Assembly (NCBI GenBank): GCA_012729225.1
Contig: JAAYDO010000209.1
Coordinates: 47,755-111,754 of the forward strand
Direction: 5' to 3'
Source: Bacteroidales bacterium
GTDB lineage: Bacteria; Bacteroidota; Bacteroidia; Bacteroidales; Bacteroidaceae
DNA length: 64,000 bases
Shown here: positions 3,051 to 64,000 of the stretch, one piece after another
Layout: every line of letters starts with the position of its first letter
Position numbering within the stretch: position 1 is the stretch's first letter
Program-made: the position numbers and the translations under genes
Notes under the pieces: generated by a model
Told to the model about the DNA's origin: nothing
Seen by the model: the letters and a program-made list of their open reading frames with translations, nothing else
Databases searched by the model: none

Positions 3051-3899
3051 ATGCGCCATTTCAAGCAACAACACCTCATCCTCCTCATCCTCCTCATCCT
3101 CCTCACCCTTCTCGCCCCTTCCGACATGCAGGCCCAAACCTACGAGTCCTATATCGAGCAAGGACTCCATGCCGCCAGCCAGCAGCAATACAACGAAGCC
3201 ATCTCACACTTCCGACAGGCCCTGCGCCTCTCCCCCGACAACATCCGAAATGCCCTCACCTACGCCAACATCGCCCGTATCCAAGACACCATGGGCGAAC
3301 CCCTCAAAGCCGTGGATACCTACGACATCGCCCTCGGCATCGCCCCCGAAAACATCCCTATTCTCCAGTCGCAAGCCGACCTCCTCCTCCGTCTGGGCAA
3401 CTATCCCAAAGCTCTCCGCCTCTACACTCGCATTCTCGACATTCTCCCTACCTCCACCACCGCCCTGCTCGCCCGCGCTCACATCCACCAGCAGCAGCGC
3501 AACTACCTTCAGGCCCAGAAAGACTACGAGACCCTACTCACCCTCCAGCCTGACCACTACGCCGCCCTGCTCGGCACCGCCATCCTATTCCAAAACGCAG
3601 GCAAACCCCAAGAAGCCATCGTCCGCCTCACCCGCCTCATCGAGCAACACCCCCACCAGGCAGAACTCTACTCTATTCGCGCAGAGATAGAAGCAGAAGT
3701 CAACCAGCCCGAACTCGCACTGCTCGACCTCGATCAGGCCCTCCAACTCTCCCCCGACAACACCAACCTCATCCTCACCCGAGCCTACCTCCACCTCCAC
3801 CTGCGCCACAAGTCACAAGCCCGCCGCGACTTCCTCCGTGCCATCCAACTCGGAGTGCCCAGAGGAGGACTCAAAGAGGAACTCAAAAAGTGCAAATGA
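3051..3899 (+). CDS. secreted or periplasmic tetratricopeptide-repeat protein
   Basis: The 282 residues begin with a very hydrophobic signal peptide (QHLILLILLILLTLLAP, cleavage probably near MQAQ), followed by about seven tandem 34-residue TPR units from residue 30 to the end (for example YNEAISHFRQALRLSPDNI and PELALLDLDQALQLSPDNT). TPR arrays act as protein-protein scaffolds; the specific partner cannot be inferred. It begins 25 bp after rsgA. No enzymatic domain follows the repeats. A 4-base-scale CTCATC repetition in the DNA encodes the Leu/Ile-rich signal. Confidence 0.82.
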   Translation: MRHFKQQHLILLILLILLTLLAPSDMQAQTYESYIEQGLHAASQQQYNEAISHFRQALRLSPDNIRNALTYANIARIQDTMGEPLKAVDTYDIALGIAPENIPILQSQADLLLRLGNYPKALRLYTRILDILPTSTTALLARAHIHQQQRNYLQAQKDYETLLTLQPDHYAALLGTAILFQNAGKPQEAIVRLTRLIEQHPHQAELYSIRAEIEAEVNQPELALLDLDQALQLSPDNTNLILTRAYLHLHLRHKSQARRDFLRAIQLGVPRGGLKEELKKCK

Positions 3900-4103
3900 A
3901 CGTACAAAAGAGTGAAAAGAGTAGAAGAAGTATTATCGTCCGCTTCCTTTAAAAATGAATATCAAAAAAGGTCGCTGGGTCTCCAAGAAAAATCCATTTC
4001 ACTACCATTCGGTTAGGTTGGCTACAAGTTTTTCTTTTCATTGACAAAAGAAACTTAGATTTTTCGTTTTTCACTTTTCACTTTCAAATGTAACGCAACA
4101 AAA

Positions 4104-4138
4104 AAGGCTTCTCGGTTCAGGATGAATCGAGAAGCCTT
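4104..4138 (-). terminator. rho-independent terminator of the esterase-GH5 gene
   Basis: A perfect 11-bp inverted repeat (AAGGCTTCTCG / CGAGAAGCCTT) with a 13-nt loop. On the minus strand it is followed by a run of six T's. It sits 28 bp beyond the stop codon of the minus-strand gene at 4166. On the plus strand it also ends the convergent run from the fumarase to the TPR gene, though with only a weak T tract. Confidence 0.85.
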
Positions 4139-4165
4139 CTTCTATGTTGAGCGTTGGGGCTGAGG

Positions 4166-6949
4166 TTATCTCATGATGGTCTTGACGGTTGTGCCATCAC
4201 TTCTGCGGATAATGTGTAGTCCGCGTGTGTCGGGGCTGATGCGCTGACCTGCCGCATTAAAATGCTCTGCTGCCACAGGGGAGATAGTGATATTCTCCAC
4301 GCCTGTAGAAAGGTCTTCTTCGTCGAGTGCCGAACGCTCTTTGGCGTTGAATTTCACATCGGAGAAGAAGAAGAAGTATTTGCTGTCGGTGCCGCGCTTG
4401 TCGCTGTAGAGCGGAGCGTCAAGGTTGTTAGAGTCGGATCCAACGAGCAGGCCGTTGGCCTTGCACTTGAGTTGGAAGTTGCCGTACTGGTTGCCTTCAA
4501 TCGTATATTTGGCATTGTCGGTCGTGGGGTCAAGACGGAAGAAGGTGTTCCAGGGTCCTTCGAGCGTCATAAACTTCTCGGTGCCGTTATCTTCCCTATA
4601 GACGATGTTGAAGTAGCCACCTCCGCAGTCTCTAATTGTAACGGGTCGGCAGAACCACGGGTTGGTGATGGCTGCAGTCTCGTTGGGACCTTTGCCCACA
4701 ATGAGCTTGCTTGCCGCATGGACGAGGTAGCATTCCTTGTCGGGTGCAAGACCTGTGCCACCTGATGATGAGCCACCTGAGTTGAAGCCGTAAGGCATTG
4801 GGACTTTGTCGCCGCAGGCATATTCGTAGTACCACTGGAAGCATGAGCCACTGCATGCCTGGTAGGCGTCGGCATAGCCCGCTCTGCGCATCTTGTCGAG
4901 GAATGCAGGCTGGACGGTACCGTTGGCAAGGTATTTCTCTATGTCCACATAGAGGTCTGAGCCTTGGAGAGTCCAACTTACGTTGCCGAGCTGGTCAGCC
5001 ACGTACTTGAACTGGTCGCCAAAGCGACTCTTCTCGGAGGTGCTACCTGTGCCCCAAGTGCCCATGTTGCTGGTCACCCAGTTGCCATGCTCGTCGTAGT
5101 GCCCTGAGTTGCCGTCTTTCGGACTCCAATCGACCTCAGTGATGATGACGGGGCAGTAATCGACCACGGGCACTTGCGCCTTGAACTGTGCGAGCACCTG
5201 CTGTGGAGTGCGTGTGGCGTTGGCGTCGTTGCTGGCGGTGCTGTACCATCCAGGGTAGAAGTGGACGGCGTAGCCTATGTTGTAGGAGCCGTCGGGGAGA
5301 TTGTCAGTGGGGTGACTCCACATGTAGCTGGTGTAGTTTGCCTGCCATCCCGTGCCTGGCAACCAGAGAATACCCTTGTAGCCGTTGGTGCGGATCTTAT
5401 TGATGATAGGCTGGAAGAAATCGCGGAGGACTGAGGATGTGGAATTGTCGAACCAGGCAAAGTTGGTCGTACCACGAGGATAGACTGCCACTGGCTCGTT
5501 GCCCAGTTCAAGGGATATTTGCCCTGGGTACTTCTTGGCGATGGGGTGGTTTGACACAATGTCCCATACCTTGTAGAGGTAGTCGTTGTAATAGTCGCCC
5601 ACAACAACTGTGGCAGGGAACACGCCTGGAGGACGAATCACTACATAGAGCCCGTGAGCAATGGCATCTTCGGCGATGGGCATGTAGAGGGCATCGAGGT
5701 ATTTCCTGAGTTTTGTCTCCGAGAAGTGGTAGATGCTTGCCTCGCCGCCCACTTCGTTGCCGTGGGGGTCATATACTTTGCCATTCCATTCCGAGAAACC
5801 GTTTGCCCTGATATTGTTGTCATTCAGCCAGCATGGGTCGAGGTGAAGACGGAACACGTTGGCGTATGTGCCCTTTGCGGGATTAGCGATGGCCTCGAAG
5901 ATCTTGGTGAAGTAGGCGCGGCACTTGTAGATGTTGGCATCGTCGTTGTAGTCTGCCCAAGGGATACCGCCACTCCAGCGACCGCTGTTGAACCACGCGC
6001 TGGGAGTGTCCATCACACCATGAAGGGTAACGGCACGTCCGTTGGGATCGACAAGGTTCTTTCCGTCCACCTTGAGGTCGGGGGTTGTGCCAAAGTAAGA
6101 CTTCACACCCGCAGGGAGGTTGGAGTGTGCCTGCTGCGCACCTGCTGGCTGGGCAGAGGACTGGCCGTTGAGCGTGAAACGCTTGCAGAAATCCCATATT
6201 TCCTTTCGGTTGCGCACGGTTGGCCAGTGACCACCCTCCTGGTAGTAAAAGAGCGCCACGGTCTTTCCTGTGTTTTCGTCGGTCCACACCTCTTTTGTGC
6301 CTGTGGCACTCTGGTTGGAGTAGTTCTCTATCTTCTGGTACTTCGTATAGCCGTTGCTCATGGCAAGGCCAGTCACGTAGTTGATGAAGTTGTACTGAGC
6401 GATAGGGAACACACCATCGGAGAGGGAGTGGCAGTGAATCAGGTTGATTTGTCCCTTCAGGTTTTTCCACTGCTGCTCTGTGGACATGTAGCCACTGGTA
6501 GGAGCAAAAGCGGCAATCTTGTCCTCCAGCAGGGCGAGCGAATGGTAGAGAAGCATTGAGCCCATAGAGAAACCAGACCAATAGACCCTATTGGTGTCAA
6601 TCTGATAGAGCTGGCTCATCTTGTCAATGGAGCTTCTCACGAAGTTAGCATCTCCCGTTCCGCCTATATCCCATGCGGCGCCATTTGACCGGAGATAGGC
6701 AACGATGAATCTTTCAGAATCCACGATGTCTCTGAACAAGTCACCCTCCGACTGATACTCGGGATTCTGGTTCATGCCATGTGTGACCACCATGAGTGGT
6801 AGGTTTGCCGACATGTTGTCGGGCTTGTAAACAAGCACACTGCGGTTTTGACCGTTCACATTCACTGTGATGTTTTCTGACTTGTAAGCACTAATGGGAA
6901 TGCTTACCAACATTACTGCAAGAGACAGTAATAACTTTAAATACTTCAT
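4166..6949 (-). CDS. secreted bifunctional enzyme: esterase domain fused to GH5 glycoside hydrolase
   Basis: The 927 residues begin with a signal peptide (about 1-21). Residues 25-262 form an alpha/beta-hydrolase of the PHB-depolymerase/feruloyl-esterase type: GFSMGS gives nucleophile Ser128, with Asp178 (HSLSDG) and His241 (EGGHWP) as likely triad partners. After a linker near 262-285, residues 285-700 are a GH5-like TIM barrel with Glu485 (LELGNEP) as acid/base and Glu605 (VIITEVDW) as nucleophile. A beta-rich module (about 735-870) and a type IX-like tail (YFNAAGQR-like, GLHIIRRSDGTTVK) end the protein. Likely role: removing ester groups from and cutting a plant beta-glycan such as mannan or xylan. 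The exact substrate is not readable. Confidence 0.87.
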   Translation of the reverse strand: MKYLKLLLSLAVMLVSIPISAYKSENITVNVNGQNRSVLVYKPDNMSANLPLMVVTHGMNQNPEYQSEGDLFRDIVDSERFIVAYLRSNGAAWDIGGTGDANFVRSSIDKMSQLYQIDTNRVYWSGFSMGSMLLYHSLALLEDKIAAFAPTSGYMSTEQQWKNLKGQINLIHCHSLSDGVFPIAQYNFINYVTGLAMSNGYTKYQKIENYSNQSATGTKEVWTDENTGKTVALFYYQEGGHWPTVRNRKEIWDFCKRFTLNGQSSAQPAGAQQAHSNLPAGVKSYFGTTPDLKVDGKNLVDPNGRAVTLHGVMDTPSAWFNSGRWSGGIPWADYNDDANIYKCRAYFTKIFEAIANPAKGTYANVFRLHLDPCWLNDNNIRANGFSEWNGKVYDPHGNEVGGEASIYHFSETKLRKYLDALYMPIAEDAIAHGLYVVIRPPGVFPATVVVGDYYNDYLYKVWDIVSNHPIAKKYPGQISLELGNEPVAVYPRGTTNFAWFDNSTSSVLRDFFQPIINKIRTNGYKGILWLPGTGWQANYTSYMWSHPTDNLPDGSYNIGYAVHFYPGWYSTASNDANATRTPQQVLAQFKAQVPVVDYCPVIITEVDWSPKDGNSGHYDEHGNWVTSNMGTWGTGSTSEKSRFGDQFKYVADQLGNVSWTLQGSDLYVDIEKYLANGTVQPAFLDKMRRAGYADAYQACSGSCFQWYYEYACGDKVPMPYGFNSGGSSSGGTGLAPDKECYLVHAASKLIVGKGPNETAAITNPWFCRPVTIRDCGGGYFNIVYREDNGTEKFMTLEGPWNTFFRLDPTTDNAKYTIEGNQYGNFQLKCKANGLLVGSDSNNLDAPLYSDKRGTDSKYFFFFSDVKFNAKERSALDEEDLSTGVENITISPVAAEHFNAAGQRISPDTRGLHIIRRSDGTTVKTIMR

Positions 6950-6986
6950 TTTTTAATAAAGTGTTAGATTAGGTAAATAAAAAAAC

Positions 6987-7091
6987 TTGCAACACTATTA
7001 ATCAGTAAGTGTCATTCTCCTCCTTGTCCACCAAAGAAGTGGTCAGGGGGAGGCGGTCTTGCCAAGATTTCCACCCAACATAGTGTTGCAA
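6987..7091 (-). promoter_or_regulatory. stem-closed leader upstream of the esterase-GH5 gene
   Basis: A perfect 12-bp inverted repeat (TTGCAACACTAT at 6987-6998 and its complement at 7080-7091) encloses 81 bp. On the minus strand the closing stem is followed by seven T's, about 40 bp before the ATG. The interior holds further short complementary stretches (CCACC/GGTGG, CCTCC/GGAGG). It could be an attenuator, another regulatory RNA or a miniature inverted-repeat element. A related structure precedes the gene at 51800-52414. Confidence 0.55.
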
Positions 7092-7121
7092 AAGAAATTG
7101 GGCGAATCTGAAAAGACGCGC

Positions 7122-7129
7122 CAAAGATA
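7122..7129 (-). promoter_or_regulatory. promoter -7 box for the esterase-GH5 gene
   Basis: TATCTTTG on the minus strand matches the Bacteroidetes TAnnTTTG element. It would start transcription just upstream of the stem-closed leader, giving a 5' UTR of roughly 165 nt. No clear TTTG -33 element is seen. Confidence 0.5.
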
Positions 7130-7316
7130 ATAATAAAAAATGATAAAACGAATTTAGGGGGACTATTTTTTTATAATTATAGTATTTCTCCTTGCTTTTA
7201 CCACTAAAAATACTTTATTTTCTTGTTTTTTGTCCTAATAAATTAAATTATTAGAGAAAAATGATGATCAAAAACTTTCCAAGAGAATTATTTTGAATTA
7301 TTTTATTTATATTTAC

Positions 7317-7530
7317 CTAAAAATTATCGCATATATCCCTATCAAGGAAAAAGATTGTCAAAATAGCATAAGGTTGCCTGGTATCCTCTATATCAAATCT
7401 ATCAAGTGCTTTCGACTTGTTATCGAAGAGACAATATGTAGCAAGAGCCGCCACCATGTTCATGATAAAGTTGCTGACCGACCTATGCCTTGAATGCACT
7501 ATCTGTAAGAATGCAAGTTTGGCGAATCCG
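7317..7530 (-). pseudogene. C-terminal remnant of an IS982-family transposase
   Basis: The minus-strand translation reads LQIVHSRHRSVSNFIMNMVA then ALATYCLFDNKSKA, which matches the C-terminal end of Bacteroidetes IS982 transposases (HSRHRS..NFI.N...ALA.Y.F). Nothing upstream restores the DDE catalytic portion, so this is debris of an old insertion. A sister remnant carrying HSRLRSVSDFIMNMEVAL lies at 63690-63803, next to a fresh IS982 5' end. Confidence 0.72.
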
Positions 7531-7576
7531 GGTTGATTGCAGGACTTGAAAAAAACAGGTATCTTCTGTAATCAGC

Positions 7577-7664
7577 AACCATATGGTAGACGAGCAGAAA
7601 CCATATGGTAAACGAGCAGAAACTATATGGTATTTACTCACAAACCATATAGTCCGAAAAAACG
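7577..7664. repeat. divergent 22-bp array, three units plus terminal unit
   Basis: Three successive 22-bp units (AACCATATGGTAGACGAGCAGA, a one-base variant, then a more diverged copy) are followed by a fourth unit starting AACCATATAGTCCG and the tail GATGCGCTTTTC. Each early unit contains the palindrome ACCATATGGT. Period and unit number match the four arrays at 22333, 33578, 45649 and 57041, although the unit sequence differs. Confidence 0.8.
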
Positions 7665-7770
7665 ATGCGCTTTTCAGGGAAAAGGAAGAATTCGTCATGA
7701 GCACAATAAGTATGTCACAACTATGGCAGGTTTTCCTGCAATAAAAAAATGAAAAATAATCGATTTTTCA

Positions 7771-7801
7771 TTTGCCATTTCGATTTTTTGATGTACCTTT
7801 G
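7771..7801 (+). promoter_or_regulatory. promoter of tRNA-Asn
   Basis: TTTG at 7771-7774, a 19-bp spacer, then TACCTTTG at 7794-7801: a textbook Bacteroidetes sigma promoter 20 bp before the tRNA. Confidence 0.8.
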
Positions 7802-7820
7802 CAGTGTCTTAGAAAAAGAG

Positions 7821-7894
7821 GCTTCAGTAGCTCAGTTGGTTAGAGCACATGACTGTTAATCATGGGGTCGTTGGTTCAAGCCCATCCTGAAGCG
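7821..7894 (+). tRNA. tRNA-Asn (anticodon GUU)
   Basis: The cloverleaf can be drawn by hand. The acceptor stem is GCTTCAG/CTGAAGC, the D arm GCTC-AGTTGGTTA-GAGC, and the anticodon arm CATGA-CTGTTAA-TCATG with anticodon GTT. The T arm GTTGG-TTCAAGC-CCATC has one T-T mismatch. CCA is not encoded. A terminator follows directly. Confidence 0.93.
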
Positions 7895-7895
7895 C

Positions 7896-7930
7896 AAAAG
7901 GGAATCACTATAACATGATTCCCTTTTTTC
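7896..7930 (+). terminator. rho-independent terminator after tRNA-Asn
   Basis: AAAAGGGAATCA pairs with TGATTCCCTTTT around an 8-nt loop and the stem runs into a T tract, one base after the tRNA. Confidence 0.88.
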
Positions 7931-8132
7931 ATGGCGAGGGGGATACAGCACTCCTTCTTCACATTTTGTAAAAATTTGAGTTTTGCGAATCGTTGTTTTT
8001 GTGATTTTTTTATAAATTTCCCCTCCCACCACCTCTATTTCTGCGCACTTACAAGGGGACTCTACCCCACTTATTATTGCCGTCCCTATCATATCTCTCA
8101 GGGGCAATAGGTTCTTTTTACCCATCACCGTT

Positions 8133-9620
8133 TCAACTCTTAGTCCAGAAGTCGCGAGTGAAGAGGATGATGATGGGGAAAATTTCGAGACGACCAATGA
8201 GCATGAGGAAGGAGCAGACCCATTTGGCAAGGGGAGTGAGTATGGCCCAGGAGTGGACTGGACCGTAGTAGCCCATGCCTGGTCCCACATTGCTGAGGCT
8301 GGACATGGCAATGCCAAAGGCTTCGTAGTAATCGAAATCGGGATGGACATCGTTGGGATTTACACCTGTCAGCGCCAACACGAAGGCTCCGAAAAAGAGG
8401 GAACAGACAAAAAGAGCCACGAAACCCAGAAGGGTCTTGACCACTCCAAGCGAAATGATGCTATCGTTCATGCGCACGGGAATGACGGCACGAGGATGAA
8501 GAATGTGAGTGAACTCATTGAGGAGCACACGAAGAATGATGCTGATACGCATGCACTTGAATCCTCCGCTAGTGCTGCCCGAACATGCTCCTACAAACAT
8601 CACGAAGAGGAGGGCAGGCATAAGCTGCACAGGCCAAACGGTGTAATCGACCGTGGCAAGCCCTGTTGTGGTCTCAAGAGAGATGACGGTGAACAGACTG
8701 TGACGAATGGCTTCCTCCAGATCGTAAGCAGAGGAAGAATGGGTCACGAGTGTGATGGTGCAGATGAGTGAAATACCCAAAGAGATGACGAGGTAGGTGC
8801 GGAGCTCGGCATTATGGAAGAACTTTTTGAACTTTCCTTTGAGAATAGTATAATATATTAATGTGTAGTTGACACCCGACATGAACATGAAGAGAATGAG
8901 CACGTACTCGATGGCAGGAGATTTGAAATAGTCGTCGAGCAAGGCAGAGTGAGTGCCGTAGCCGCCTGTGGCTGTGGTGACGAAGGAGTAATTGACCGCA
9001 TCGAAGAAACTCATTCCACAAATCCAGAGAGAGAGGATGCAGAGAACGGTGAGCATGAGGTAGATTCCTCCTATCCATTTGGCTGCCACAGAAATGCGGG
9101 GATGGACCTTGTCGTGGAGCGGTCCTGTGGATTCGGCAGCAAAGAGTTTGACCTCGCCCACTCCGAAGGCGGGAAGGATGGCGATGGTGAAGAAAACGAT
9201 ACCAATACCGCCTATCCACTGAGTGAGGCTGCGCCAGAAGAGCAAGCCACGGGGCATAGAGTCGAGGTCGTCAATGATGGTGGCCCCCGTGCTGGTGAAT
9301 CCCGACATTGTTTCGAAGAATGCGCTCGCCACATCAGGCACTTGGGGGCTGGACAAGAAGGGCAACAGCCCAATGAGAGTGAAGAGCACCCACACGACGG
9401 AAACCACGATATAACCATCTTTTCGACCCATCTTCTTACCTGCGTTGCGACCAAGGAGGATGCCTGTGATGCCTAATGCAAGAGCTATGGCTATGGGAGG
9501 GACAAAAGCCTCCACGCCTTCACCGTAGATCCATGAGACAATCTGACATGCCGTCATGAGGCCTGCCTCGATGAGGACGAGGAAGCCAAGGATACGAAAT
9601 ATAAGTTTCCAATTGACCAT
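8133..9620 (-). CDS. trkH: TrkH-family potassium uptake protein
   Basis: The membrane subunit of the Trk K+ uptake system, 495 residues. It contains the repeated M1-P-M2 pore units; the first selectivity-loop segment is visible as FETMSGFTSTGATII, and later loops include FVTTATGGYGTH and SLETTTGLATVDY. About ten hydrophobic membrane spans are evident. It lies 135 bp downstream of trkA on the same strand, so channel and regulator are probably coexpressed. The first 200 bp after its stop, up to the tRNA terminator, hold no gene. Confidence 0.94.
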   Translation of the reverse strand: MVNWKLIFRILGFLVLIEAGLMTACQIVSWIYGEGVEAFVPPIAIALALGITGILLGRNAGKKMGRKDGYIVVSVVWVLFTLIGLLPFLSSPQVPDVASAFFETMSGFTSTGATIIDDLDSMPRGLLFWRSLTQWIGGIGIVFFTIAILPAFGVGEVKLFAAESTGPLHDKVHPRISVAAKWIGGIYLMLTVLCILSLWICGMSFFDAVNYSFVTTATGGYGTHSALLDDYFKSPAIEYVLILFMFMSGVNYTLIYYTILKGKFKKFFHNAELRTYLVISLGISLICTITLVTHSSSAYDLEEAIRHSLFTVISLETTTGLATVDYTVWPVQLMPALLFVMFVGACSGSTSGGFKCMRISIILRVLLNEFTHILHPRAVIPVRMNDSIISLGVVKTLLGFVALFVCSLFFGAFVLALTGVNPNDVHPDFDYYEAFGIAMSSLSNVGPGMGYYGPVHSWAILTPLAKWVCSFLMLIGRLEIFPIIILFTRDFWTKS

Positions 9621-52740: not shown

Positions 52741-52793
52741 CCTCTTGTGCTACAGCGCACATCTGGGAAATTGTGATTGAGACAAGTGAGACA
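52741..52793. repeat. interspersed repeat B, copy 2
   Basis: Matches 13383-13436 with few substitutions (CCTCTTGTGC, CATCTGGG, GATTGAGACAAGTGAGACA). It ends 117 bp before prmC. The TGTGC/GCACA pair within it can form a small hairpin. Confidence 0.75.
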
Positions 52794-52877
52794 TGTTGAA
52801 GAGCATAGGATTATCTCTTTTGCAGAGGAAACGCTCTCCATATACAAAAGGGGACAGTGTTCTTTTGTCCCAAAAAG

Positions 52878-52908
52878 TTGCAGAGGTACGTGCAAAGTCG
52901 TATCTTTG
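52878..52908 (+). promoter_or_regulatory. promoter of prmC, predicting a leaderless mRNA
   Basis: TTG at 52878, a 20-bp spacer and TATCTTTG at 52901-52908, ending one base before the ATG at 52910. Transcription should begin at or within the start codons (ATGATG). Confidence 0.7.
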
Positions 52909-52909
52909 C

Positions 52910-53818
52910 ATGATGAAGAATGTATATCGAGACATCAAACAGATATTGGCAGAAGGAGGCATTGCCAGTGGAGAAGCCCAAGCCATCGCTATGCTCTTGA
53001 TGGAGAAAGTGGCTGGGATGACTACTGCCGAGGTGCTCATGAATGACCCTAAAGGGGAGGAACACCGAGCCACGCTCCTCTCCTGCGCCACTCGAATAGC
53101 GAAGGGTGAGCCTGTGCAGTATGTAGTGGGCGAGGCTGATTTCTGTGGACTCACCTTCAAGGTAACGCCAGGAGTGCTCATCCCAAGACCTGAAACGGAA
53201 GAGTTGGTGAACTGGGTGAGAGAAGAGGCAAAGGAGATGGAAGGGTCGAAAGAAGGGAAACTGGCTTTGCTGGACATTGGAACAGGAAGCGGATGTATTG
53301 CCATCTCATTGGCTCATCTGCTGAAGGATACTGAGGTGGAGGCTTGGGACATCAGTGAAGAAGCACTCCTGATGGCTCGGGAAAATGCGAAGAGGAATCA
53401 TGTGGGGGTGGTATTTAAGAAGAGAAACGCTCTCGAAGGCATCTCGAAGGCGTCTCGAAGGCATCTCGAAGGAGAGAGTGGCTGTATTTTTGAGGAATCA
53501 CAAAGGATGTTTGACATCATTGTGAGCAATCCTCCCTACATTTGCGAAAGCGAAAAGAAGAATATGGAAAGGAATGTGTTGGAGCATGAACCTGGACTGG
53601 CTCTGTTTGTGCCCGACAATGACCCTCTGCTCTTCTACCGCAAGATAGCGGAGATGGGGCGCACCTCTCTAAGAGAGGGAGGAAGGCTATTCTTTGAAAT
53701 CAACCGACAATATGGTATGGAGACTTTAGAGATGCTTGGAGAGATGGGATACCAAGAGGTGGAACTGCGGAAAGACCAGTTTGGCAACGACCGCATGGTG
53801 AGGGCAATAAAAGCATGA
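52910..53818 (+). CDS. prmC: peptide chain release factor N5-glutamine methyltransferase, with repeat-derived insert
   Basis: Methylates the GGQ glutamine of release factors. About 302 residues from the ATG at 52910 (or 52913); the longer ORF start at 52793 precedes the promoter. The N-terminal helical domain is MMKNVYRDIKQILAEG onward. The SAM motif is LLDIGTGSGCIAISLA and the substrate motif IVSNPPYICESEKK. Between RNAL and the NPPY strand the chain has an extra segment of roughly 20 residues (EGISKASRRHLEGESG), encoded by four 11-bp repeat units at 53431-53474. Frame is kept. The rest is of normal length. Confidence 0.92.
   Translation: MMKNVYRDIKQILAEGGIASGEAQAIAMLLMEKVAGMTTAEVLMNDPKGEEHRATLLSCATRIAKGEPVQYVVGEADFCGLTFKVTPGVLIPRPETEELVNWVREEAKEMEGSKEGKLALLDIGTGSGCIAISLAHLLKDTEVEAWDISEEALLMARENAKRNHVGVVFKKRNALEGISKASRRHLEGESGCIFEESQRMFDIIVSNPPYICESEKKNMERNVLEHEPGLALFVPDNDPLLFYRKIAEMGRTSLREGGRLFFEINRQYGMETLEMLGEMGYQEVELRKDQFGNDRMVRAIKA
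53431..53474. repeat. 11-bp array inside prmC
   Basis: TCTCGAAGGCA, TCTCGAAGGCG, TCTCGAAGGCA and TCTCGAAGGAG in tandem. The reverse complement (CCTTCGAGATG/CCTTCGAGACG) equals the units of the non-coding arrays at 13476 and 38426. The non-coding flanks are not present here. Confidence 0.88.
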
Positions 53819-53848: not shown

Positions 53849-55939
53849 ATGAAAACAATGAACATCACACATATGATTAAGAGAACAGGAGGGAGCATGA
53901 GCCAGCGGTGGATTTTGGCTCTTCTGCTTCTCATGTTGGGAATGAGCGCAGTCAAGGCTTCCGACGGATGGAGAATCTATGCCTCCTACCACAATCCTAC
54001 CAGAGCCTTGAAGACCGATGCACGTATCTTTGTGTTGGCAAATGGCAATCTCTACAGCTATGACACAGAAGACCAACTGGTGCAGTTCTATGACAAGACC
54101 AATGTGTTGAGCGATTTCGGCATTAAGGACATAGGCTATTCCTCCACCACCAAGCAGGTTGTGGCACTCTATGAGAATGGCAACATAGACCTGATAGGAC
54201 TGGAGGGAAGTCGCTGGAACTTGCCCGACCTGAAGCAGAAGAACATGGATGACAAGACTGTGAATGAGTTGAAGGTGGTGGGTGGAAATGCTCTTATCAG
54301 CCTCAACTCTGGATTGGTTTTGATAGACCTCAAGGAAGGCTACTTCGTGGATTTCTACCCTTTCAGCAGTCAGGTGACGAATGCTACCATGTCGGGCAAC
54401 AAATTCTATGTCAAGACAAAGGATGGAGTGATGGAAGGGGACAAGAGCACCAACCTACTGGATGCTAACAACTGGAAGAAGGTGGACAGCAGTGCCGTCA
54501 CCTTTGGGCAAACAACCGCAGAGAAGGAAGAGGAGGAAAAACTGCTGGAGCAAGTGAAGAACTTCAACATCCAGTCGCCTATCAGAAACTACTCCTACAA
54601 GTTGAACATGCAGGGCAATCGTCTGCTGGTGGCTGGTGGCAACTTCTACTACCCCAACGTGCTCTACCCTGGCACTGCCATGAAATATGAAAATGACAAG
54701 TGGACAGCCTTTGACGAGGAAGAGCCCATCGCCCTTGTGGGTAAGAACACATACAACAATGTGACCGACATTGTGCAAGACCCTGATGACTCGGAGCACC
54801 ATTGGCTGGGCACAATGAGGTCGGGCATCTATGAATTCAGAAACTACAAACTTGTGAACCACTATAGTTACCACAATTCGCCTCTGACAAGCATTCTCCC
54901 CGACAACGCTAATCTTCAGAACTTTGTGCGTGTGACCGCCCTCAACTACGATGCTGAGGGCAACCTCTGGATGTGCAACAACGAGTGTGACACAATTGTG
55001 CGTGTGCTGAAGAAAGACGGCAAATGGACTTCCTTCTATTATCCAGAAGTGGTGAAGCGCACCACTTGGGACCACACCATGTTTGACCGAAGAGGCTGGA
55101 CATGGATGGTGAGCCGACGCACCAACAGCTATGGAAGTTCGGGGCTTCTGGTCATCAACACCAATGGCACGATTGACAAGCGTTCGGACGACAAACATGC
55201 CTACATGTCTTACTTCACCAACCAGAATGGCGACCGCTACTCACCCGACCTCTTCTACTGTGTGGCAGAAGATCTGGATGGCACCATCTGGATAGGTTGC
55301 ACACCAGGTATCTTTATCACCAAGAGTCCTGACGTGGTGTTCAAGAGCGAGCCAACACTCACCCAGCCTATTGTACCCAGGAATGACGGTTCAGGCTTGG
55401 GCGACTACCTGCTCAACAATATCTCCGTGAAGAGCATCACTATAGATGGAGGCAATCGCAAGTGGATAGGCACACTCAACAATGGTGTGTATCTCCTGAG
55501 TGCAGATGGCATGGAGACATTGGAACACTTCACCGCAGAAAACAGCCCTCTCATCAGCAATGAAATCAACGACATAGCCATCAATGGAGAGACTGGCGAG
55601 GTGTTTATTGCCACGACTCGAGGGCTTTGTTCCTTTAGGGGCAATGCCACAGACCCTGCCACCTCCATGAAGTCTGACAAATTGAAGGTCTTCCCCAACC
55701 CTGTGAGACCAGAATACCAAGGAGATGTACACATCACAGGTCTGATGTACAACTCGGACGTGAAGATTGTGAGTGCGGCAGGCAAACTGGTGATGGAAGG
55801 CAAGAGTGTGGGAGGTGAGTTCTCCTGGAACTGCCACATGGAGAATGGACGCAGGGTGGCCTCTGGCATCTATTATGCGCTCTGCACAGACGAGGATGGC
55901 AAGAACGGGGCTGTAGCGAAGATTCTCATTATCAAATGA
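53849..55939 (+). CDS. porZ: PorZ-like type IX secretion system protein
   Basis: 696 residues with an N-terminal signal segment (WILALLLLMLGMSAVKAS, possibly translated from the inner ATG at 53897). It then has two beta-propeller domains (about 45-320 and 320-600) that include NGNLYSYDTEDQLVQFYD, GNIDLIGLEGSRWNLPDLKQ and later two-component-regulator-propeller repeats (NRKWIGTLNNGVYLLSADG, GEVFIATTRGLCSF). It ends in a type IX sorting-type domain (LKVFPNPVRPEYQGDVHITG). This is the layout of PorZ, a surface component of the P. gingivalis attachment complex. It is somewhat shorter than the P. gingivalis protein. It follows prmC by 30 bp. Confidence 0.82.
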   Translation: MKTMNITHMIKRTGGSMSQRWILALLLLMLGMSAVKASDGWRIYASYHNPTRALKTDARIFVLANGNLYSYDTEDQLVQFYDKTNVLSDFGIKDIGYSSTTKQVVALYENGNIDLIGLEGSRWNLPDLKQKNMDDKTVNELKVVGGNALISLNSGLVLIDLKEGYFVDFYPFSSQVTNATMSGNKFYVKTKDGVMEGDKSTNLLDANNWKKVDSSAVTFGQTTAEKEEEEKLLEQVKNFNIQSPIRNYSYKLNMQGNRLLVAGGNFYYPNVLYPGTAMKYENDKWTAFDEEEPIALVGKNTYNNVTDIVQDPDDSEHHWLGTMRSGIYEFRNYKLVNHYSYHNSPLTSILPDNANLQNFVRVTALNYDAEGNLWMCNNECDTIVRVLKKDGKWTSFYYPEVVKRTTWDHTMFDRRGWTWMVSRRTNSYGSSGLLVINTNGTIDKRSDDKHAYMSYFTNQNGDRYSPDLFYCVAEDLDGTIWIGCTPGIFITKSPDVVFKSEPTLTQPIVPRNDGSGLGDYLLNNISVKSITIDGGNRKWIGTLNNGVYLLSADGMETLEHFTAENSPLISNEINDIAINGETGEVFIATTRGLCSFRGNATDPATSMKSDKLKVFPNPVRPEYQGDVHITGLMYNSDVKIVSAAGKLVMEGKSVGGEFSWNCHMENGRRVASGIYYALCTDEDGKNGAVAKILIIK

Positions 55940-58305: not shown

Positions 58306-58313
58306 TATCTTTG
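58306..58313 (+). promoter_or_regulatory. promoter -7 box of the GT2-FkbH-ACP-MBOAT-SGNH operon
   Basis: TATCTTTG. The ORF-track start at 58311 (TTG) lies within it, so the ATG at 58347 is the likely start. No further promoter is seen until the end of the operon at 63624. Confidence 0.65.
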
Positions 58314-58346: not shown

Positions 58347-59201
58347 ATGCTGTCTATTCTAATTCCTACATACGACTACACTTGCTACAAACTTGTTCTC
58401 GACCTGCATGAACAGGCCGAACGGCTGGGCATTCCCTATGAAATCATTGTAGCAGAAGACGGTAGTCGGGCTCAGGTGAATGTCATTGCCAATCACAAAA
58501 TAACAGAACTGTCCAACTGCAAGCATCTGGTAAGGAAAGGGAATGTGGGCAGGTCTGCTATCCGCAATGTGCTGATAGAAGAATCCCAAGGCGACTGGCT
58601 GCTCTTCATGGATGCTGACGGCAAGGTGGTGAGAGAAGATTTTCTACATAAATATTGGGAAGCCAGCAAGGAACACGAGGTGGTGTGTGGAGGCATCAAG
58701 ACTCCCGACTCCTGTCCCAATCCACAGAAGAGGCTGAGATGGATGTATGAAAAAGACTATGAGGAAAAGCATGGATATGTGAGCGAGCAGTTTCGTTCCT
58801 TCTGTTTCCTCATCAAGAGAGAAGTGGCAGAGCGTATCAGATTTGACGAACGCTATCGTCACTACGGTTTTGAGGACGTGCAGTTTGGCATAGATCTGCA
58901 GGATGCAGGCATACAAGTGGTTGGCATAGACAACCCACTGGAAAATCAAGACCTTGAAGACAATGCCGTTTTTCTCAAGAAGACAGAAGAGGCTATCCGC
59001 ACAGCTTATGAGTTTCGTCAGGACATAGGGCAACACATCACCCTCTCTCGGCTCTATCAGAAATACCAAATGTGGGGATGGGTTATGCGACTTTTCTTCC
59101 AACTCTTTCATGCGCCCATGCAACAGCAACTGACCTCCGACAAGCCATCACTCTTCTGGTTCTCCGTTTATAAACTCTGTTATTACGCCCATCTGTCATG
59201 A
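58347..59201 (+). CDS. GT2-family glycosyltransferase, first gene of the FkbH operon
   Basis: 284 residues from the ATG at 58347. LSILIPTYDYTCYKLVLDLH and IIVAEDGSRAQVNVIANHKI open the GT-A fold; GNVGRSAIRNVLIEESQGDW and LLFMDADGKVVREDF carry the DxD. RFDERYRHYGFEDVQFGIDL is the usual galactosyl/glucosyl-transferase-like acceptor block. It overlaps the FkbH gene by 4 bp, so it should work on the same glycan that the downstream modification genes decorate. Confidence 0.87.
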   Translation: MLSILIPTYDYTCYKLVLDLHEQAERLGIPYEIIVAEDGSRAQVNVIANHKITELSNCKHLVRKGNVGRSAIRNVLIEESQGDWLLFMDADGKVVREDFLHKYWEASKEHEVVCGGIKTPDSCPNPQKRLRWMYEKDYEEKHGYVSEQFRSFCFLIKREVAERIRFDERYRHYGFEDVQFGIDLQDAGIQVVGIDNPLENQDLEDNAVFLKKTEEAIRTAYEFRQDIGQHITLSRLYQKYQMWGWVMRLFFQLFHAPMQQQLTSDKPSLFWFSVYKLCYYAHLS

Positions 59202-60931
59202 ACACATATCAGCAACTGAAACGCAATCTGAAACAAGACCTCGGTTCGTTCCCTGTCTTGAAGGTGGCTCTATTGGGCGACAGTGCCACACAGATGCTGG
59301 CTACCGCCATTCGTGGAGAAGGAGTAGTGCGTGGCTACAACATCCACCTTTGGGAAGCGGAGTATAGTCAGGTGGAGAGGCAGATGATGGACGCATCGAG
59401 CGACTTGCATCAGCAGGACTTCAACTATATCATTGTGTTTCAGTCCACTCACAAACTGATGGAGCAACATGCCCTGATGCAGGAAGAAGAGGAGAAGAGA
59501 ACTCTGGCAGAGGAGAGACTGGAGTTTGTGAGAAGCATCTGTGACCATTGCCCCACACATATCATCTACTTCAATTATCCAGAAATAGAAGATGCCGTAT
59601 TCGGTTCGTATGCCAACAAGGTCGAAACCTCCTTCTCCTATCAAGTGAGAAAACTCAACCTTGGGCTGATGCAGTTGGCACAGGAGAAGAAAGGTCTGTT
59701 CATCTGCGATCTCTGTGGCATTCAGAACAAGATAGGTAGAGACAGGCTCTTCGACCCTGCCGTATATGTGAGCACAGAGATGCTCTTGAGCATTGATGCC
59801 CTGCCACTAGTGGCTGGGCGCACCCTCGACATCGTTTGCGCCACAGAGGGCAAGGTGAAGAAATGCCTTATTCTTGATTTGGACAACACACTTTGGGGCG
59901 GAGTGGTAGGCGATGATGGATGGGAAAACATCCAGATAGGACATGGATTAGGCATAGGGAAAGCCTTCACAGAGTTTCAGGAATGGATCAGGAAACTCAA
60001 GCAGAGAGGTATCATTGTGGCTGTTTGCTCCAAGAATGACGAGGAAAAGGCAAGAGCACCCTTCGAAAAGAATCCTGAAATGGTGCTGAAACTGGAAGAC
60101 ATCGCCGTGTTTGTCGCCAACTGGAACAACAAGGCAGATAATATCCGACACATTCAGGAAGTCCTTCATATAGGATTTGACTCTATGGTCTTTCTCGACG
60201 ACAATCCCTTTGAAAGGAATCTGGTGAGAGAGAACATTCCTGACATCACTGTGCCTGAACTACCTGAAGACCCTGGACTCTATCTGGAATACCTCTATTC
60301 GCTCAACCTGTTTGAGACTGCCTCCTATAGTTCAGCAGACCAAGAACGCACCAGACAATATCAAGTGCAGTCGCAAAGGGTATCTGCATCAAAGAGTTTC
60401 ACCAATGAGGAGGATTTCCTGAAAAGTCTCAACATGGAGAGCGAGGTAAGCATCTTTACCACATTCAACACACCACGAGTGGCACAACTTTCTCAAAGAA
60501 GCAATCAGTTCAATCTACGGACAATCAGATACACAGAGGATCAGATTATGCAGATGGGGGCAAGTCATCGGTATGCACCCTTCTGCTTTACGCTTGAAGA
60601 CAAGTTTGGTGACAATGGACTGATTGGTGTGATTATCTTGACAAAGGAAAATGAGGAAACGCTTTTTGTGGATACATGGTTCATGTCGTGCAGGGTGCTG
60701 AAACGAGGAATGGAGAATATGATGCTTAATACCATCGTGGGCTATGCAAAGCAGAATGGATTCAAACACATCATAGGTGAATATCTGCCCACAACCAAGA
60801 ATGGAATGGTGGCAGAACACTATGACCATTTGGGGTTTACACCTCTGAAAGAAACCAAGACAAAGCAATACAAACTTGAGGTGGACGCATATCAGCCGCG
60901 CAAGTGTTATATCAAAACAAAAGAGAAATGA
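59198..60931 (+). CDS. FkbH-like HAD-IIIC enzyme
   Basis: 577 residues in the long FkbH form: an N-terminal SGNH-like domain (about 20-195, VALLGDSATQML), a HAD domain with CLILDLDNTLWGGVVGDDGW (Asp227 and Asp229), CSKNDEEKA and MVFLDDNPFERN, and a C-terminal GNAT-like half (about 400-570). Characterised FkbH-type proteins load a glyceryl unit from 1,3-bisphosphoglycerate onto a carrier protein. Stop and start overlap with the ACP gene (ATGA), so the ACP is the likely partner. No methoxymalonate or polyketide genes are nearby, which argues for a glycan-modifying role. Confidence 0.88.
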   Translation: MNTYQQLKRNLKQDLGSFPVLKVALLGDSATQMLATAIRGEGVVRGYNIHLWEAEYSQVERQMMDASSDLHQQDFNYIIVFQSTHKLMEQHALMQEEEEKRTLAEERLEFVRSICDHCPTHIIYFNYPEIEDAVFGSYANKVETSFSYQVRKLNLGLMQLAQEKKGLFICDLCGIQNKIGRDRLFDPAVYVSTEMLLSIDALPLVAGRTLDIVCATEGKVKKCLILDLDNTLWGGVVGDDGWENIQIGHGLGIGKAFTEFQEWIRKLKQRGIIVAVCSKNDEEKARAPFEKNPEMVLKLEDIAVFVANWNNKADNIRHIQEVLHIGFDSMVFLDDNPFERNLVRENIPDITVPELPEDPGLYLEYLYSLNLFETASYSSADQERTRQYQVQSQRVSASKSFTNEEDFLKSLNMESEVSIFTTFNTPRVAQLSQRSNQFNLRTIRYTEDQIMQMGASHRYAPFCFTLEDKFGDNGLIGVIILTKENEETLFVDTWFMSCRVLKRGMENMMLNTIVGYAKQNGFKHIIGEYLPTTKNGMVAEHYDHLGFTPLKETKTKQYKLEVDAYQPRKCYIKTKEK

Positions 60932-61164
60932 ACAGAACTGAAGTTTTAGAACAGGTACAGGACATCTTTCGCAACATTCTGGATGATGAAGATATTGTGC
61001 TGACAGACGAGAGCACTGCTGAAGATGTTGAGGAATGGGACTCGCTCACTCACATTCAGCTTATCAAGGCTATAGAGAAGGCTTATTCCATCAGATTCAC
61101 AAGCCGAGAAATTCTCTCATGGAACAATGTGGGAGAAATGCTGGACTGCATCTTGAAGAAATAA
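60928..61164 (+). CDS. acyl carrier protein
   Basis: 78 residues from the ATG at 60928 (the track's 60904 start is a TTG within the previous gene). It has the four-helix carrier layout and the phosphopantetheine site Ser39 in EEWDSLTHIQLIKAIE. Acidic overall. The overlap with the FkbH gene and direct contact with the MBOAT gene indicate a dedicated, DltC-like carrier rather than the fatty-acid ACP. Confidence 0.92.
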   Translation: MNRTEVLEQVQDIFRNILDDEDIVLTDESTAEDVEEWDSLTHIQLIKAIEKAYSIRFTSREILSWNNVGEMLDCILKK

Positions 61165-62640
61165 ATGGAAATCAACTCCACACATTTTCTTCTTTTCTTC
61201 ATTGTGGTGTTCCTGATTTATTATTTACCACTGAAGAACCATGCGAAGGGGCAAAACCTATGGTTGCTCCTCTGCAGTTATTATGCCTTTGGCGTGGTGG
61301 AATGGAGAATGCTTCCCTTGCTGATTGGCGTCACAGGTTTTTACTTCTTTCTGGGCATTGCCATTGCCAGAAACAATGGAAAAGATGAACGAAAGGCTTC
61401 TCTCCTCACCACCTTTGGCACACTCACAGGAGTAGGTGTGCTTGTTTATTTCAAGTATCTTAATTTTCTTATAGATGCTTTTACGGAGATGTTTCTATCT
61501 TTGGGATTGCAGGTAGGCAGCCACACGCTGGGCATCATCATGCCTGTAGGCATCAGTTTCTTCACCTTTAAGTTGATTAGCTATATCATTGAGGTACACA
61601 GAGGACACATGCCACCGTGTCAGGATATGGTAGCTTTTGCCACCTATGTGGCCTTTTTCCCAACACTGCTCTCAGGACCTATTGATAGACCGAAGCCCTT
61701 TCTTCAACAACTAAGCCATAACCGAACATTTACATACCCGTCTGAGCACAATCAAGTGGTGGACGGTATTCGCCAGACCCTATGGGGTCTCTTCAAGAAA
61801 GTGGTCATTGCGGACTCTTTAGTAACTTTTGTGGATTTGGGGTGGAACAAGACTGGCGAAAGCACGCAATGGGCATTGGCACTGGTTGCTCTCACCTATC
61901 CAATCCAACTCTATATGGATTTCTCAGGATATTCAGACATGGCTATTGGTGTAAGCAAGATGCTGGGCATCCAAGTGGCTAAGAACTTCAATTATCCATT
62001 CTTTGCCCAAAACATGGCAGACTATTGGCGCAGATGGCATATCTCACTTACCTCTTGGCTGACAGACTATGTGTTTATGCCACTGAATATCATGTTTCGT
62101 GATTGGGGGAACATGGGCATGATTCTTGCCTGCATCATCAATATGGTAGTTGTAGGTGTTTGGCATGGTGCCAACTGGACTTTTGTTCTCTTTGGGCTCT
62201 ACCACGGACTACTATTCATCCCTCTTATTCTGAATGGGTCTTTCACCTCAAAGAAAAAGGTAAAGACTGAAGGATATCTACCTTCAATTAGACATGTAGG
62301 CAAGATGCTGATGACCTATCTTCTTGTGGCAATAGGACTGGTCATCTTCAGAGCGGACAATATCATAAGCCTGGGGCATTTTGTGAGTACACTCCTCATG
62401 GGAAATCCCTATATGGAATATGAATCTCTGGAGGTGAGTCAATTCCCTAAGACAACTTTCTTTTTGGCAGTCCTTCTGTTGATTGCAGAATGGATAGCCA
62501 TGCATAAAAAGAAGGAATTTGCCCTACAACTTTCTGAGGAGTGGAAGGCATGGGGACGCTATAGTGTGTATATGCTGTTGGTGTTGCTTTATCTCCTGAA
62601 AGTGGGAGGCTCGCATGAATTTATCTATGCACAATTCTAA
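61165..62640 (+). CDS. MBOAT-family O-acyltransferase
   Basis: 491 residues with about 11-12 membrane spans. The family landmarks are GISFFTFKLISYIIEVHRG, TLLSGPIDRPKPF, YPIQLYMDFSGYSDMAIGVS, NFNYPFFAQNMADYWRRWHI and MVVVGVWHGANWTFVLFGLY; His334 in WHG is the conserved catalytic histidine. AlgI and DltB belong here; they pass acyl groups across the membrane to extracellular polymers. The ATG follows the ACP stop directly (0 bp), so transfer from that carrier is likely. Confidence 0.93.
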   Translation: MEINSTHFLLFFIVVFLIYYLPLKNHAKGQNLWLLLCSYYAFGVVEWRMLPLLIGVTGFYFFLGIAIARNNGKDERKASLLTTFGTLTGVGVLVYFKYLNFLIDAFTEMFLSLGLQVGSHTLGIIMPVGISFFTFKLISYIIEVHRGHMPPCQDMVAFATYVAFFPTLLSGPIDRPKPFLQQLSHNRTFTYPSEHNQVVDGIRQTLWGLFKKVVIADSLVTFVDLGWNKTGESTQWALALVALTYPIQLYMDFSGYSDMAIGVSKMLGIQVAKNFNYPFFAQNMADYWRRWHISLTSWLTDYVFMPLNIMFRDWGNMGMILACIINMVVVGVWHGANWTFVLFGLYHGLLFIPLILNGSFTSKKKVKTEGYLPSIRHVGKMLMTYLLVAIGLVIFRADNIISLGHFVSTLLMGNPYMEYESLEVSQFPKTTFFLAVLLLIAEWIAMHKKKEFALQLSEEWKAWGRYSVYMLLVLLYLLKVGGSHEFIYAQF

Positions 62641-62643
62641 AAC

Positions 62644-63624
62644 ATGAAGAAGTTTTTATTGAAAATATTCATTTTCTCCCTTCCTTGGCTCATCCTTCTT
62701 GCGCTTGCCGAAGTGTATGTGGAGAGCCTTCCAAACATTGCACGCTATAAGCACTCGTGGATGCTCCAGCATGGTGATGAGGTGACCACGCTCATTCTCG
62801 GGCATAGCCACACGCTATATGGTGTTCGCCCAGACGTGCTGGGCAAGGGAACTTTTTCTTTGGCTCAACAATCGCAGAGCCTACGGTATGACGCCTATCT
62901 GCTGAAGCATTACCCCCTCAAGAATCTGAGAAAGATTATCCTGCCCTTTTCCTACAGTTCGCTTTGGGAAGACTTTGAGCATCAGCCAGGCGAGAAGTAT
63001 CAGGCTATGCGATACCGTATTTATATGGACTGTGACATTCATCCACGCATCAGTTGGTATGGTTTTGAAATCATGTCAATGCCAGCCGTGAGAGAAAAAC
63101 TGAAGAGTCTTTACACTCCTGCACAGAATGGTTGGGATAGCCTCGGCTGGGGCAATGATTACACTTTACAGACGAGAGAGAAGCCTTGGGATAATGGAAA
63201 AATCAGAGCAGAAAAGAATACCTATAAAGACACTTCCATCATTCCTTTAAACGAGGGATTCCTGCGAGAAATCTTTGAAGAATGCAGAAAGAGGGACATC
63301 AAAGTAATACTGCTGAATACTCCCGTCTCTCCCAACTTCAGGAAATGGGAAGACAGGCGGCAAGTGAACATCAACCAACAGATTCTGTCAGAACTCTTGA
63401 AAACATACCCTGAAGTGGACTATTTAGATTGGGAGGATGATCCTCGATTCTGCGATGAGGACTTCTATGATGGAGATCACCTCAACTCAGAAGGTGCTAA
63501 GAAACTGACAAGATTCATCAAAAGTGAGATGAGCAAGAGACAGGAAAGCAAAAAGGAGAAGAGAGGCAGGCAGAAGTGGAAGTGGGAGGAGATGAATACA
63601 TTTAACGTCCTCTGTCTGGAGTAA
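62644..63624 (+). CDS. membrane-anchored SGNH-like protein (AlgJ/DltD-like role)
   Basis: 326 residues: one N-terminal membrane anchor (KIFIFSLPWLILLALAEVYV), then an extracytoplasmic SGNH-fold domain. LILGHSHTLYGVRPD supplies nucleophile Ser55; DGDHLNSEGAKKL supplies Asp276 and His279 as the D-x-x-H pair; LLNTPVSPNF is the block III region. The C-terminus is highly charged. It starts 3 bp after the MBOAT gene. MBOAT plus SGNH pairs are the normal two-step export and transfer unit for polymer acylation. Confidence 0.82.
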   Translation: MKKFLLKIFIFSLPWLILLALAEVYVESLPNIARYKHSWMLQHGDEVTTLILGHSHTLYGVRPDVLGKGTFSLAQQSQSLRYDAYLLKHYPLKNLRKIILPFSYSSLWEDFEHQPGEKYQAMRYRIYMDCDIHPRISWYGFEIMSMPAVREKLKSLYTPAQNGWDSLGWGNDYTLQTREKPWDNGKIRAEKNTYKDTSIIPLNEGFLREIFEECRKRDIKVILLNTPVSPNFRKWEDRRQVNINQQILSELLKTYPEVDYLDWEDDPRFCDEDFYDGDHLNSEGAKKLTRFIKSEMSKRQESKKEKRGRQKWKWEEMNTFNVLCLE

Positions 63625-63816: not shown

Positions 63817-63906
63817 TAAGAAAAGTGCCCGAAAAGTTGTAGGAGTGAAATATTTTTTGTACCTTTATAGGTAAAAATCAAACAGATACAAATAATACTC
63901 ACTCCT

Positions 63907-64000
63907 ATGACGACTGCAAATTTAATAGAAATTTTCTGTATTCTCGACGAATTCTGCAAATATTTCACTCCAGAATTGAAAAAACATCTGGTTGATGTCC
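63907..64000 (+). CDS. IS982-family transposase, 5' part (cut by window end)
   Basis: The first 31 residues (MTTANLIEIFCILDEFCKYF onward, then TPELKKHLVDV) match the N-terminus of Bacteroidetes IS982 transposases (EIFC..DEFCK....ELKK). The gene runs out of the window. TACCTTTATAG about 45 bp upstream may be part of its promoter. The frame is open, so this copy may be intact. Confidence 0.8.
   Translation, partial: MTTANLIEIFCILDEFCKYFTPELKKHLVDV

Follow-up and report, generated by a model that had tools for sequence, protein, structure and literature searches.

Among the closest described counterparts of the locus considered here is the DltABCDX system, which D-alanylates teichoic acid. Its DltB is regarded in published accounts as the sole carrier-dependent protein among the solved membrane-bound O-acyltransferases (MBOATs), the other pathways that join an MBOAT to an SGNH protein being taken for users of acyl-CoA (PMC12148441, PMC10213974). 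The O-acetylation pathways of the PatAB, AlgI-AlgJ/X and WssHI type are held to use acetyl-CoA, without a carrier protein, and the tyrosine of an FxYxxF motif bears the acyl group in both PatA and DltX (PMC12148441). FkbH enzymes that have been characterised use 1,3-bisphosphoglycerate as the source of the glycerate that they load (PMC7489565, PMC4979870). The present locus lies in a stretch of 64,000 nucleotides, called the window below, from a Bacteroidales bacterium (GCA_012729225.1, contig JAAYDO010000209.1, positions 47,755 to 111,754 of the forward strand), and consists, at 58347-63624 of the window, of head-to-tail genes on the + strand for a GT2 glycosyltransferase, FkbH, an acyl carrier protein (ACP), an MBOAT and an SGNH-fold protein. 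We consider it probable that this operon carries out a Dlt-like trans-envelope acylation, with FkbH instead of an adenylating enzyme as the loader of the carrier, the group transferred being most likely D-glyceryl and its destination a surface glycan.

The open-access literature joins FkbH with MBOAT only in papers on cyanobacterial aeruginosins, where the two serve separate steps, and in it we found no described carrier-dependent MBOAT family in Bacteroidota; nor did it yield a characterised example with exactly this gene set, in keeping with what a preliminary description of this DNA had stated. A large Bacteroidota MBOAT clade appears to break the acyl-CoA rule and to bear a sequence signature from which the type of donor can be predicted, and by way of the operon an intermediate of glycolysis could come to decorate the cell surface. 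The gene for the glyceroyl group of Tannerella "remains elusive" (PMC6120980), and the stage at which glyceroyl is added to Bacteroidota glycans is unknown (PMC12871550). The operon family may supply candidates for such unexplained groups; the Tannerella group, however, is N-linked.

The gene set and its carrier-docking signature

The five genes are tightly packed: GT2 and FkbH overlap by 4 bp, as do FkbH and the ACP, there is no gap between ACP and MBOAT, and 3 bp separate MBOAT from SGNH. These are the genes and junctions that the preliminary description had listed, and the reading-frame coordinates and family searches bear it out, including the pantetheine serine of the ACP and the WHG motif of the MBOAT. 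The features of the operon are as follows.

58306..58313, + strand: candidate Bacteroidetes-type -7 box TATCTTTG, 5' of GT2 (from sequence, weak)
58347..59201, + strand: GT2 glycosyltransferase, with which the operon begins (PF00535, 1.5e-16; genus synteny)
59198..60931, + strand: FkbH, long form, with N-terminal extension, HAD phosphatase domain and C-terminal acyltransferase domain (PF21211, TIGR01686, 3slr)
59876..59902, + strand: codons of the HAD motif DLDNTLWGG (D227, D229) of FkbH (alignment)
60928..61164, + strand: acyl carrier protein, 78 amino acids (PF00550, 4.7e-7; alignment)
61042-61044, + strand: phosphopantetheine Ser39 of the ACP, within WDSL (alignment)
61165..62640, + strand: MBOAT acyltransferase, DltB-like (PF03062, 5.4e-20; WHG; DltB matches)
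62086..62100, + strand: codons of MBOAT residues 308-312 (N-I-M-F-R), which correspond to helix HC of DltB (V305, I306, M309), where DltC docks (alignment)
62620..62637, + strand: codons of the C-terminal acyl-shuttle motif FIYAQF (FxYxxF) of the MBOAT (alignment)
62644..63624, + strand: membrane-anchored SGNH-fold protein, proposed final transferase (fold match, conserved residues)
62806-62808, + strand: SGNH Ser55 (conservation)
63478-63480, + strand: SGNH His279 (conservation)

The best structural match of the MBOAT is DltB (profile match to 6bug 3.1e-47, fold match 1.6e-13). A cytoplasmic helix of DltB binds the carrier DltC through Met302, Val305, Ile306 and Met309 (PMC11035591); these positions align to M305, N308, I309 and F311 of the window protein, which also has R312 in this segment, invariant within its own clade. 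In a sister clade of 29 members, mostly MBOATs without FkbH and without a carrier, the docking positions read I, G, deletion and G in turn, two columns of the segment being deleted and flanked by Gly to give a short PLGGNR form. Counted per locus, an MBOAT of the insert type is present at 72 of 76 FkbH loci and at 1 of 22 loci without FkbH, in a set of comparison MBOATs that was taken from among the best matches in 119 genomes plus the genus site and is not a random draw. Loci with two MBOATs have one of each type in eight cases out of nine. The host genome's own second MBOAT and the pair at the genus site (L245) are of the short type, and the 46-member clade that includes the window protein is ACP-linked throughout.

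The MBOAT ends in FIYAQF, in which F486, Y488 and F491 are invariant among 28 homologues, and a C-terminal FxYxxF is found in 75 of the 78 MBOATs of FkbH loci. Docking segment and fused shuttle motif together lend strong, if indirect, support to the view that the window MBOAT would take its acyl group from the carrier.

The loader is recognised by its scores against FkbH_N (PF21211, 1.3e-80) and TIGR01686 (299 bits, cut-off 146.65), and by a match of 1.3e-179 to the solved Bacteroides fragilis protein 3slr (BF1531). D227 and D229 are invariant among 17 homologues and also in FkbH proteins that biosynthetic clusters of Streptomyces encode, namely a tetronate-like cluster and another that includes an ACP and an acyl-CoA dehydrogenase; alignment with these shows that S278, K312 and D334 of the HAD domain are retained as well, as is Cys498. 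To judge from its family, the window FkbH would most likely put D-glyceryl on the ACP.

For the SGNH protein, sequence support is weak (DUF1574 8e-6 and GDSL 0.007, both under cut-off), and a search for solved relatives by sequence alone gave weak matches only. Its AlphaFold model (pLDDT 82.6) resembles SGNH acylhydrolases, DltD and PatB by fold, and G-x-Ser55 is conserved in 22 homologues, as is the D-x-x-H histidine, His279. The earlier assignment to SGNH agrees with the fold and with these residues. The last 23 residues (about 63553-63621) are without counterpart in the three genus relatives and modelled with low confidence; this tail possibly reflects a stop codon that was lost, or sequence rearranged locally.

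The likeness to Dlt lies in the small carrier, the DltB-like MBOAT with its docking segment, the SGNH fold and the Tyr shuttle FxYxxF. The ACP is a dedicated carrier in the manner of Dlt systems, as judged from PF00550 and Ser39; NCBIfam gives no DltC assignment. In place of DltA, however, there is FkbH, the operon having no adenylation domain; a separate DltX is missing and would find no room between the genes, the motif being instead the C-terminus of the MBOAT; the MBOAT scores 208 bits against the DltB equivalog TIGR04091, below its cut-off of 375; and the host is of the Gram-negative type, in which teichoic acid is not expected. The operon is one that works like Dlt yet falls outside the Dlt systems on DltA, on DltX and on the DltB cut-off. 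With PatAB, AlgI-AlgJ/X and WssHI it shares an MBOAT with fused C-terminal FxYxxF and an SGNH partner, but unlike them it encodes a carrier and a loader, and its MBOAT has the insert and not the PLGGNR form. The FkbH-ACP cassettes of polyketide, tetronate and aeruginosin pathways similarly place a three-region FkbH beside a stand-alone ACP, and the glycerate unit of aeruginosins may be O-methylated (PMC10143770); the window differs from these in having no ketosynthase, FabH-like or non-ribosomal peptide synthetase partner, the proposed hand-over being to a membrane export pair.

Recurrence and variants of the gene set

Within the genus, FkbH scores over the family cut-off in 4 of 37 genomes, always as GT2-FkbH-ACP-MBOAT-SGNH. 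At the level of the order, 28 of 393 genomes hold an FkbH of the window kind, and a scan of named genomes added 80 loci; these were the best-scoring ones, so that percentages describe close relatives of the window FkbH, and gene calls in the neighbourhoods were mechanical. Where at least 4 kb was available on both sides, FkbH stands beside an ACP at 65 of 70 loci, an MBOAT at 50 and an SGNH gene at 46. For the MBOAT, chance would give about 1%, as estimated from roughly two MBOAT genes per genome, and the linkage is far above this. The co-occurrence that the preliminary description had named as a check is found widely across Bacteroidota, and extends to Alphaproteobacteria (35-37% FkbH identity), with loci on a Rhodobacteraceae plasmid and on pSymB of Sinorhizobium meliloti, both with a VOC gene. 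The latter (CP140883.1; L149, 2876-8755) shows that a plant symbiont has this gene set too, with VOC, an MBOAT ending in FLYQGF, ACP and FkbH; its possible SGNH protein carries the annotation TonB-dependent receptor.

Three layouts recur: FkbH-ACP-MBOAT-SGNH, as in the window; FkbH-(methyltransferase)-ACP-VOC-MBOAT-SGNH; and FkbH with ACP, MaoC and a short-chain dehydrogenase/reductase (SDR) ahead of MBOAT-SGNH. The latter two layouts insert a methyltransferase of the S-adenosylmethionine (SAM) type, a VOC protein that resembles methylmalonyl epimerase, a protein like the MaoC dehydratases, and a reductase like FabG. Since enzymes of these kinds commonly act on carrier- or CoA-bound acyl groups, their presence suggests that the carrier-bound group is tailored ahead of export.

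The single insert-type exception among loci without FkbH (L210; G103:C96:69000-79000, 3285-9006; Bacteroidales) encodes two DltA-like adenylating enzymes, an ACP, an MBOAT and an SGNH protein, and its MBOAT falls within the 46-member clade (SH-aLRT 98). It shares the carrier-MBOAT-SGNH chassis of the window and differs from it in having adenylating loaders instead of FkbH; it is in itself a Dlt-like system with such loaders in a host of the Gram-negative type. The loader appears to be exchangeable, because DltA-like enzymes and an ACP are here paired with an MBOAT of the same clade. The case is evenly balanced for a broad, modular family of carrier-dependent systems of surface acylation, in which the glyceryl of a glyceryl-ACP core would be exported as it is, which would be the case of the window, or would first be O-methylated, epimerised at C2 (VOC), or dehydrated and reduced to lactyl (MaoC, SDR), with DltA-like loaders and FkbH interchangeable on one MBOAT chassis. 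Bryostatin is said to offer a precedent for the formation of lactyl by FkbH, a dehydratase and a reductase, and may serve as a lead.

Two further groups of FkbH loci were seen. In one (L062, L063, L066 and L039) the MBOAT is divergent and the neighbouring proteins are of about 500 amino acids, with ACP and methyltransferase visible in three; these MBOATs have the carrier-docking insert despite opposite-strand transcription. The other (L041, L043, L044 and L045) combines a more distant FkbH (34-43% identity) with an ACP and other biosynthetic genes, has no MBOAT, and probably represents another use of the FkbH loader.

Proposed acyl transfer and its alternatives

We propose the following course for the window operon. 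FkbH would take D-glyceryl from 1,3-bisphosphoglycerate, strip its phosphate and load it on the phosphopantetheine of the ACP, as its family suggests. The ACP would then dock on the DltB-type helix of the MBOAT, and the acyl group would pass to Tyr488 of the FxYxxF motif. By analogy with PatAB and Dlt, the acyl-Tyr tail would pass it on to Ser55 in the SGNH protein, which is anchored in the membrane and may finally form an ester with a sugar in a surface glycan that the adjoining GT2 enzymes help to build. A non-adenylating analogue of Dlt had been suggested in the preliminary description, and co-occurrence, the DltB-like docking segment and the fused shuttle motif all support it.

Several points weigh against this account. 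The substrate of FkbH is assigned from its family, whose actinobacterial members it matches at about 27-29% identity, and the alignment that we used included no experimentally characterised FkbH sequence; glyceryl loading and the acceptor are both matters of inference. The coupling of FkbH to the insert-type MBOAT is not absolute, four FkbH loci (L085, L088, L121 and L126) being without one, though in L088 the linked MBOAT is cut off. The Fisher test of insert against FkbH (p=2e-16) ignores shared descent, and for a phylogenetically independent test of insert against ACP linkage there were too few pairs. Finally, the SGNH protein is too divergent for any curated family.

As to alternatives, the same machine might export some other small hydroxyacyl group, such as lactyl, placed on the ACP by FkbH or by a partner encoded elsewhere. 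MaoC with a FabG-like reductase, or a methyltransferase with VOC, does stand beside the ACP in other genomes, and the final groups probably vary between them; neither the window operon nor the three related operons of the genus, however, have any of these tailoring genes, so that they are most simply explained by an FkbH product left unmodified, and a different group is unlikely. We think it quite unlikely that the operon houses two pathways, one using glyceryl-ACP in the cytoplasm, for instance to N-acylate a nucleotide sugar (compare the N-glyceroyl of Tannerella), the other an MBOAT-SGNH acetylation from acetyl-CoA. N-glyceroyl sugars exist in Bacteroidota, some FkbH-ACP loci are without MBOAT, and three genus members have an MBOAT-SGNH pair without FkbH at the same site, all of which would fit such a division; but the window MBOAT has a docking segment that is absent from the FkbH-less MBOATs, L245 and the host's second MBOAT among them, and no gene for a cytoplasmic acyltransferase lies in the operon. 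The carrier might also serve a polyketide, tetronate or lipid pathway, to which characterised FkbH enzymes belong, with the MBOAT-SGNH pair adjacent by accident. Against this, the linkage to MBOAT recurs across phyla and the host has one FkbH only, over the whole genome; no ketosynthase or polyketide synthase genes were found nearby, either in the window or at the equivalent sites of genus relatives, a result in favour of the preliminary description, and the FabH-like ketosynthase of the tetronate glycerate-utilisation operon was not among the neighbouring genes examined in either. With no partner genes nearby, polyketide or tetronate use of the ACP was rejected, and an incidental adjacency of this kind is very improbable.

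A separate matter is the acceptor, which under our proposal of FkbH-loaded, Dlt-like acylation would be a glycan made with the help of the neighbouring GT2 genes. PatAB, built on the same chassis, acts on peptidoglycan; the patchy presence of the cassette in the genus, beside GT2 genes, is nevertheless a pattern typical of variable surface glycans and would point to a glycan, and we regard peptidoglycan, a lipid or a secreted protein as a somewhat unlikely acceptor.

Promoter and flanking genes

A single promoter for the five genes, as the preliminary description had it, is plausible. The -7 box-like TATCTTTG stands 5' of GT2, but an exact search at the operon did not find the full -33/-7 pattern. 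Downstream, a reading frame like that of an insertion sequence (IS) transposase begins at about 63900-64000 on the + strand. The contig stops inside it, the end of the window being the end of contig C34, and the downstream side of the operon is not visible.

Upstream of the operon lie prmC, two further GT2 genes and porZ, whose product is a component of type IX secretion.

52793-53818: prmC, just upstream of the operon
53849-55939: porZ, just upstream of the operon (PF21544, 1.9e-40)

Among genus relatives, the GT2 gene follows porZ directly or after other GT2 genes, even where there is no FkbH cassette. The porZ-GT2 site is continued by the FkbH cassette, or runs straight on to unrelated genes, or is followed by an MBOAT-SGNH pair of the other type, without ACP or FkbH (G010, G011 and apparently G016). 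Because the site occurs both with and without it, the cassette is accessory.

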